This document shows positions 38,485-42,804 of a stretch of DNA of 57,777 bases, in pieces; the stretch's first letter is position 1; each line of letters starts with the position of its first letter. The translations under genes and the position numbers were made by a program. This DNA is from Candidatus Microgenomatus auricola (GTDB lineage: Bacteria; Patescibacteriota; Patescibacteriia; SBBC01), in assembly GCA_005239865.1 (NCBI GenBank), contig SBBC01000033.1, forward strand, positions 1-57,777. Direction: 5' to 3'. Under the pieces are notes generated by a model. It had not been told where the DNA came from and did no database searches. It saw nothing but the letters and a program-made list of their open reading frames with translations.

Positions 38485-38562
38485 AGTTGTTAGTTGAAAG
38501 TTTTAAGTTAAGGTACGATGCATCAACCACCTCCTGACAACCTTCAACTTCCTCCTAAAGCC

Positions 38563-39015
38563 ATGCCCCGCAGTTACATGATTCCCAAAAAATTCGTGCC
38601 AAAGTCAGATAACGGGTATTTCGAGGTATTATCGAAAACCGTGTTTCAGGTGGGATTCAACTGGCGGGTAGTGGAAAAGAAGTGGCCGGACATCCACAAG
38701 GCGTTTCATGGATTCAGGATCGAGCTAGTCGCCAAGATGGATATTGACGACGTTGACGCACTCTTAAAGAACAAACAGATCATTCGGAATGGTCGAAAAA
38801 TCATGGCTGTTATCGCCAACGCGCAGAAGTTTTTGGAAATTAAAAAAAAGCACGCTGCGGTAAAGAAATTCCTACGGTCACTGCGAAAGAAGCCCTACCG
38901 TGAGCGTCGAAAAATCCTGTCGAAAATGTTCGCGGGTATTGGTCCGACCGGCGTGTTTGTGTTTCTCTATACGGTCGATGAACCAGTGCCGCACTGGCAC
39001 CAACGTAACGATTGA
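38563..39015 (+). CDS. DNA-3-methyladenine glycosylase I-like protein
   Basis: A 150-residue protein. YFEVLSKTVFQVGFNWRVVE, DVDALLKNKQIIRNGRKIMAVIANAQ and GIGPTGVFVFLYTVDEPVPHW correspond to successive blocks of the Tag family of helix-hairpin-helix glycosylases. The N-terminal zinc-binding Cys of classical Tag is absent, so it is a divergent or shortened member. ATG 38563 (MPRSYMIPKK) is preferred over ATG 38518, because the codons before it form a low-complexity stretch that looks like the tail of the intergenic repeat. It should remove alkylated adenine from DNA. Confidence 0.72.
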   Translation: MPRSYMIPKKFVPKSDNGYFEVLSKTVFQVGFNWRVVEKKWPDIHKAFHGFRIELVAKMDIDDVDALLKNKQIIRNGRKIMAVIANAQKFLEIKKKHAAVKKFLRSLRKKPYRERRKILSKMFAGIGPTGVFVFLYTVDEPVPHWHQRND

Positions 39016-39479: not shown

Positions 39480-39762
39480 GCGGGTGTCGTATTACGGCTA
39501 TTATGTCACCCTTCTCCCGTAAAACGAGGAGCGTGAGCGACGAAGTTTTACTGATCCCGTACGACGAGCTCTTGTGACAATCCTGGCGCAGGTATCGTAT
39601 AATGGTAATACCTCAGCTTTCCAAGCTGATGCCGGGGGTTCGATTCCCCCTACCTGCTCCAAGATTGTCACGGGATCCTCGCAACCAGACGGGCTCGTTC
39701 GTAGCCTCGTCGTTGCGGGACAAGGGGTAGAAGCCCCGCCGAATGGCGGGTCACCCGCTCCA
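39480..39762 (+). other. split tRNA-Gly-like envelope enclosing an intact tRNA-Gly
   Basis: The 5' part (39480-39514) reads like a tRNA-Gly: acceptor GCGGGTG, D-arm region CGTATTACGGCTATTATG and TCACC-CTTC up to the middle of the anticodon loop. The 3' part (39720-39762) resumes with CCAA, a modified T-arm and CACCCGC-TCCA, whose 7 bases pair perfectly with GCGGGTG. CTT plus CCAA rebuilds a tRNA-Gly(UCC) anticodon loop. The roughly 205 bases in between fold well: GTAAAAC/GTTTTAC (39519-39551), GTGACAATC/GATTGTCAC (39574-39582 with 39662-39670) around the inner tRNA, and CGCAAC...GTTGCG (39679-39716) with inner GACG/CGTC and GGCT/AGCC. It could be a structured insertion or a decayed duplicate. 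Confidence 0.5.
39588..39661 (+). tRNA. tRNA-Gly (anticodon TCC)
   Basis: A complete cloverleaf: acceptor GCAGGTA pairs with TACCTGC, D-stem GTAT/ATAC, anticodon stem TCAGC/GCTGA with loop TTTCCAA (anticodon TCC at 39620-39622), T-arm GGGGG-TTCGATT-CCCCC, discriminator T and an encoded CCA at 39659-39661. It decodes GGA (and probably GGG by wobble). Immediately outside, a 9-bp perfect inverted repeat encloses the gene. Confidence 0.95.
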
Positions 39763-42161: not shown

Positions 42162-42236
42162 GGCCTGGTAGCCAAGTGGTAAGGCAAGGGTCTGCAAAAC
42201 CCTTATTCAGGGGTTCGAATCCCCTCCAGGCCTCCA
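42162..42236 (+). tRNA. tRNA-Cys (anticodon GCA)
   Basis: The acceptor GGCCTGG pairs with CCAGGCC, the anticodon stem AGGGT/ACCCT holds loop CTGCAAA with GCA at 42194-42196, and the T-arm is AGGGG-TTCGAAT-CCCCT. Discriminator T and encoded CCA end the gene at 42236. A shortened copy of its ends follows 12 bases later. Confidence 0.95.
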
Positions 42237-42248
42237 ACAGAAATGAGC

Positions 42249-42284
42249 GGCCTGGTGCGGGGCGAATTCCCCTCGTGGCCTCCA
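42249..42284 (+). pseudogene. tRNA-Cys-like minihelix remnant
   Basis: GGCCTGGTG repeats the first bases of the tRNA-Cys. A T-arm-like GGGG-CGAATT-CCCC follows, and GGCC-TCCA closes it. The D-arm and anticodon arm are absent. The outer four bases of the acceptor still pair (GGCC/GGCC). It looks like an internally deleted duplicate of the neighbouring tRNA, ending 4 bases before the next ORF. Confidence 0.55.
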
Positions 42285-42288
42285 TCGC

Positions 42289-42804
<516 letters not shown>

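Follow-up and report, generated by a model that had tools for sequence, protein, structure and literature searches.

Working tRNA genes on hairpins inside broken copies of the same kind suggest recurring one-step break-and-replace in a Ca. Kerfeldbacteria-like order

Many working tRNA genes in one order of tiny bacteria were found on a hairpin inside a broken tRNA gene of the same kind, a pattern that suggests recurrent breakage and replacement of these genes in a single step. Inner and outer genes mostly agreed in isotype, palindromic arms flanked the inner gene, the same site was hit in relatives, and the outer halves often resembled the tRNAs of relatives. One such locus was a tRNA-Gly(TCC) gene nested in a second tRNA-Gly, in a stretch of 57,777 nt (the window) belonging to a genome (G000) of 1.0 Mb in 58 contigs. 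The parts of this locus were as follows.

39480–39514, forward strand: 5′ half of the outer tRNA-Gly (GCGGGTGTCGTATTACGGCTATTATGTCACCCTTC), ending in ...CACCCTTC, with the break between anticodon positions 35 and 36
39515–39720, forward strand: insert of 206 nt in the outer anticodon loop, starting with TCCCG and ending with CGGGA, its ends without duplication
39515–39554, forward strand: extra hairpin-like stretch at the 5′ junction (TCCCGTAAAAC...GTTTTACTGA)
39555–39568, forward strand: 5′ arm of the outer inverted repeat (TCCCGTACGACGAG), partner of 39706–39720
39574–39582, forward strand: leader strand of a 9-bp helix around the inner tRNA (GTGACAATC), partner of 39663–39671
39588–39661, forward strand: complete inner tRNA-Gly(TCC), presumably the gene in use (ARAGORN; Rfam, 65.7 bits)
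39663–39671, forward strand: trailer strand of the same 9-bp helix (GATTGTCAC)
39706–39720, forward strand: 3′ arm of the outer inverted repeat (CTCGTCGTTGCGGGA)
39721–39762, forward strand: 3′ half of the outer tRNA-Gly (CAAGGGG...TCACCCGCTCCA), ending in CACCCGC-T-CCA
39735–39750, forward strand: hairpin replacing the outer T arm (CCCGCCGAATGGCGGG)

The inner tRNA-Gly(TCC) was enclosed by two nested inverted repeats, the helix of 39574–39582 and 39663–39671 lying within the arms at 39555–39568 and 39706–39720. The acceptor strands of the outer gene paired at 7 of 7 positions, and its halves joined as CTTC-CAA, with no base duplicated, into the loop CTTCCAA, both as claimed by an earlier reading of the sequence only; about three of the five anticodon stem pairs were kept, as read from the sequence, and two were broken. 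That reading correctly ended the 5′ half with CTTC at 39514, whereas the 3′ half, which it resumed at 39720, starts at 39721, because A39720 closes the CGGGA of the insert. The structured insert of about 205 bases that it described, with an intact tRNA-Gly(TCC) on a 9-bp stem, was recovered at 206 nt, and the predicted fold of a 301-nt region around the nested gene had a z-score of −5.5, better than that of every shuffle. Hairpins of the same type as CCCGCCGAATGGCGGG recurred in other relic tRNAs, and a TCCCGCTC..GCGAGA-type hairpin was present in G007 and G005 at the position matching the 5′-junction stretch.

Inner and outer gene at this locus agreed in isotype, Gly(TCC) within Gly(TCC). The insertion rebuilt the outer tRNA at neither junction, and the junctions (CTTC/TCCCG and GCGGGA/CAAG) contained no common core, as was also the case for the tRNA-Ile of G001. 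The 206-nt insert contained no transposase, integrase or integrase remnant and was too short to hold a tyrosine integrase. It matched no family described in Rfam, introns included, and the only matches above the gathering scores were those to tRNA. Between 39380 and the inner tRNA, no promoter-like site was found except one overlapping the inner tRNA itself; this lack of a separate site hints faintly that the inner gene may be read through from upstream. A methyladenine glycosylase gene (Pfam Adenine_glyco) was located at 38518–39015 of the window; in G003 its homologue was directly 5′ of tRNA-Gly, which supports a conserved gene order.

The window contained a second nested case, next to a tRNA-Cys gene with a relic of its own.

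42249–42284, forward strand: relic tRNA-Cys acceptor/T-arm minihelix with CCA, just downstream of the intact tRNA-Cys at 42162–42236
42603–42804, forward strand: whole of the second nested case (ARAGORN, Rfam), the 5′ part of the outer tRNA-Gly(GCC) starting at 42603
42651–42664, forward strand: 5′ arm (TCCCGCACCACTTG)
42686–42760, forward strand: inner tRNA-Gly(GCC)
42779–42792, forward strand: 3′ arm (CAAGTGGTGCGGGA)
42793–42804, forward strand: end of the outer gene (TCACCCGCTCCA)

The arm pair of this case was perfect over 14 bp. It had been counted as one of two independent examples, and it was real, but its inner tRNA occupied the T-arm position of the outer gene, not the anticodon loop, and the pattern was far wider than two loci. 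In G001, which belongs to the same family as G000, intact Cys and Gly(GCC) genes were adjacent. The nesting at Cys/Gly(GCC) in G007 was the mirror image, the broken outer gene being tRNA-Cys.

The flanks of 39 tRNAs of G000 (ARAGORN, fetched loci) and of 112 tRNAs from four genomes of the same family or order, the latter being the better-scoring tRNAs that were listed, were analyzed. All five genomes belonged to the Ca. Kerfeldbacteria-like order and were drafts, that of G007 comprising 6 contigs. Relic tRNA halves flanked a large share of the sampled tRNA genes in these genomes. Strong relic halves beside intact tRNAs were of the same amino acid in 78 of 90 cases and of the same anticodon in 68 of 90; for the amino-acid match, 2000 permutations gave about 7 expected and a maximum of 17. 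A perfect leader–trailer helix of at least 9 bp was present at 24.5% of the 151 loci of the order, compared with 0.7% when flanks were swapped between loci, and relic halves and leader–trailer helices co-occurred (odds ratio 5.3, p = 5e-5). Outside this order, such a helix was seen in the class at a single locus among 45, the tRNA-Ile of G014, which was itself nested. With same-isotype relics and hairpin flanks in five or more of the order's genomes and shuffled controls near zero, the earlier argument for a mechanism over chance gained strong support.

The junctions were located in the anticodon loop and also in the D and variable loops and at the T-arm position. At the tRNA-Gly(TCC) locus, G000, G003, G005, and G007 displayed differing combinations of inner and outer subtype with the same junction between positions 35 and 36. 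The outer halves did decay, as simple pseudogenes would, yet relatives showed the arrangement again with tRNAs newly combined. The arms shared the short ends TCCCG, CCCCGCACC, and CCCGCC, and the remainder varied between loci, which would be unusual for a transposon. Nineteen CCCCGCACC-type hairpins were found in G000, about half of them adjoining tRNA genes. A tRNA-His-like gene in G000 (G000:C58:490-600, L037) was situated on a perfect 20-bp palindrome (GATGCGCAAAGCGGTGGCTA..TAGCCACCGCTTTGCGCATC), with two 3′ relics after it. General hairpin abundance was rejected as the cause, as the 57.8-kb window had just 6 perfect hairpins of at least 10 bp (loop <90 nt), none of the tRNA-associated type. 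Duplication of locus flanks was likewise rejected as the source of the inner flanks, a 9-base resemblance being seen (by eye) in one locus only. When G000 was checked for tRNAs present solely in interrupted form (Asp, Ala-TGC, Lys-CTT, Arg-CCT, Gln-TTG, Ile-TAT, and Ala-CGC), none was shown; the sole find was a decayed interrupted tRNA-Lys, and the rest may be in assembly gaps.

At several loci, relic tRNAs held hairpins without a tRNA in their D, variable, T, and anticodon loops, and three structured families (A, B, and C) recurred in relic tRNAs of different isotypes. Family A was ~110 nt long, with a conserved GAACTGCTTC loop and GAGACGGGC, and was found in the D, T or anticodon loops of many isotypes (L091:15170-15290, L126:540-640, L228:1995, and others) in Ca. 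Kerfeldbacteria, Uhrbacteria, and other Patescibacteria. In an alignment of 19 copies, compensated changes were observed in 17 of 23 predicted pairs, which suggests that family A may be a maintained stem-loop design. Element A was not found in viral contigs; a 14-base pattern searched there was too loose to discriminate. Family B (~80 nt, GGGCAGGAGCGA..GCCAGTGGC..CGCTGCCCAGG) was found in T loops of relic tRNAs at L098 and L102 in G007, L087 in G008, and L073 in G013. Family C (TCCCGCCACCTTGATT, an AT-rich stretch and AAGGCGGGA, then TCCCGCNNNNGCGGGA) was likewise found in T loops of relic tRNAs, at L136, L142, L144, L147, and L135. A tRNA-Lys copy of G000 (G000:C33:5190-5410, L187) had three different hairpins in its D, anticodon, and T loops and no inner tRNA. 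In G005, a tyrosine-integrase island of ~5.4 kb in tRNA-Gly(GCC) (L119:800-6400), bounded by a 41-nt repeat of the 5′ tRNA, adjoined a relic tRNA-Gly into which a family A element was inserted.

At 72 loci where a relic was present, the outer halves were scored against their own inner tRNA and against intact same-anticodon tRNAs from other genomes. The outer half was closer to the tRNA of another genome in 35 loci and to its own inner in 13, with 24 ties (p = 0.002); taking the best of several genomes favours the former somewhat, and the largest margins exceeded 20 points. The outer 5′ half of the window Gly(TCC) scored 28.4 against an intact tRNA-Gly(TCC) from a different order and 11.2 against its own inner, and the window Gly(GCC) outer scored 45.8 against the intact Gly(GCC) of G007 and 32.6 against its own inner. 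The corresponding scores were 72.6 and 40.8 for the Val(CAC) outer of G003, and 36.0 (against the intact tRNA-Cys of G000) and 19.2 for the broken tRNA-Cys of G007. Because outers often matched the intact tRNAs of other genomes better than their own inner, the outer gene looked like the resident and the inner gene like a newcomer that took its place. The 13 outers nearest their own inner, among them Phe (G000), Pro(CGG) (G005), and Ile(GAT) (G001), indicated that local duplication had given rise to some copies or that gene conversion had homogenised them. The outer tRNA-Phe genes of G000 and G001 shared a common insertion, yet each matched its own inner, a pattern that suggests gene conversion. 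Taken together with the intact Cys–Gly(GCC) pair of G001 and the varied Gly(TCC) subtype combinations at a common break site, the outer/inner comparison points away from a single ancient duplication and towards resident genes being displaced repeatedly by other cognate tRNAs.

Here, we consider it moderately probable that a palindromic insert broke the resident outer tRNA-Gly and brought, or arrived with, a working tRNA of the same isotype. The resident anticodon loop would have been broken between positions 35 and 36, and the insert would have carried, or come together with, the intact tRNA at the centre of its hairpin. Such an insertion would survive because the incoming tRNA at once replaces the broken one. 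An insertion into a single-copy essential tRNA gene that brought a different tRNA or none would be lost, and the survival of matching cargo only would explain the near-constant isotype agreement of inner and outer genes. The inner tRNA would be the present working gene, possibly transcribed by read-through from upstream, and the outer halves would decay and gain further small hairpins in their loops. We infer that arrival and disruption were a single event, with selection for rescue.

The junctions of nested loci rejoined cleanly, and this, together with the confinement of inserts to loops and the pairing of their arms, suggested that the insertion step may see the folded tRNA, as single-stranded DNA or RNA. 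Outside tRNA genes, no donor element combining a tRNA with a hairpin turned up. It is possible, though we hold this only tentatively, that minute mobile elements of an undescribed class recognise the folded cloverleaf (RNA or single-stranded DNA), put hairpins in D, anticodon, variable, and T loops and can carry a cognate tRNA, and that the tRNA genes of the order were repeatedly overwritten by those of other lineages. Two candidates for a common machinery were rejected: Y1 transposase had no match in G001 or G005, both with nested tRNAs, and RtcB ligase was found in G000 and in no other genome of the order.

Other routes to the same anatomy were weighed. Tandem tRNAs of one isotype might arise stepwise by ordinary recombination, the outer copies being hit by small mobile hairpins and deletions leaving half-genes around the survivor. 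The tandem identical tRNA-Trp copies of G005, the many loci with one half only, the common tRNA-less hairpins in relic loops, and the identity of outer and inner in Phe (G000) and Ile (G001) agree with such duplication and decay. However, it repeatedly needs separate events to place 5′ and 3′ halves around the same break point, and it predicts neither mutually complementary arms nor outer halves of a different subtype, so we regard it as rather unlikely. That the loci are scars of integrase elements, which entered the anticodon or T loop carrying a complete cognate tRNA or just a piece of a tRNA, and later lost nearly everything but the tRNA, appears quite improbable. The 206-nt insert has no duplicated core and no integrase remnant, some junctions lie in D or variable loops, and this route would not predict palindromic arms; on the other side stand the tyrosine-integrase island in the tRNA-Gly(GCC) of G005, with its 41-nt repeat, and the known same-isotype rescue by an element-borne tRNA after insertion into a host tRNA gene (PMC10865867).

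The outer gene might instead be a working tRNA from which an intron containing the inner tRNA is spliced, giving two tRNAs per transcript. The description of a tRNA split in its anticodon loop, made from the sequence alone, holds for the DNA, and the spliced outer tRNA it implied was not supported: ARAGORN called no tRNA in the joined window copy, whose T arm is lost. Clean rejoining of the halves, inserts located in loops, the covariation of family A inserts, RtcB encoded in G000, and the tRNA-Ile outer of G001, which is identical to its inner and rejoins as a perfect tRNA, all fit splicing. The other genomes of the order, however, yielded no RtcB, Rfam gave no intron match, and in G007 the anticodons checked among interrupted copies are present in intact copies as well. 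Splicing as the general account is very unlikely; the outer gene in the window probably does not give a spliced tRNA, and a few undamaged outers, such as the tRNA-Ile of G001, may be spliced.

The self-rescuing insertion favoured here, if true, means that in one order of tiny bacteria tRNA genes have time and again been disrupted by insertion into their own loops and exchanged for cognate tRNAs, the displaced genes staying behind as relics. Such loci would document naturally how tRNA genes are replaced and would point to an insertion machinery with affinity for tRNA shape, in genes often treated as conserved, vertically inherited anchors. No earlier description of nested or tRNA-in-tRNA genes was found in the open-licence papers searched.

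REP/MITE-like palindromic elements (Y1 transposase hairpins) are short hairpins scattered over the genome, some of them away from tRNA genes. The hairpins of nested loci, in comparison, had a strong preference for tRNA loops, variable arms, and no consistent transposase association. Archaeal intron-containing and split tRNA genes also have halves parted by structured stretches, in the anticodon loop and at other positions, but they are spliced to a working tRNA, whereas the outer gene of nested loci is mostly defective and the "intron" would hold the working tRNA. Genomic islands that target tRNA genes likewise split the gene, leave a displaced fragment as a marker, and keep its function through the incoming sequence (Islander database, PMC4383910). 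They regenerate the same gene at one end via a long direct repeat, whereas nested loci have a whole second tRNA inside the split gene; no such repeat was present at the window locus, where the outer 5′ half scored just 11.2 against the inner. In phage tRNA-dependent lysogeny, an essential host tRNA gene is disrupted and not rebuilt, and a phage tRNA of the same isotype rescues it (Guerrero-Bustamante and Hatfull, 2024, PMC10865867). Nested loci resemble this in that the host tRNA is rebuilt at neither junction and the incoming tRNA is of the same isotype. The phage case involves a phage-sized element with a tyrosine integrase and a core of ~10 bp (about 8–11 bp), whereas nested loci are ~200 bp, with palindromic arms and many isotypes per genome. 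Though set apart from that class by having neither integrase nor duplicated core, the nested loci appear to share the logic of tRNA-dependent lysogeny.
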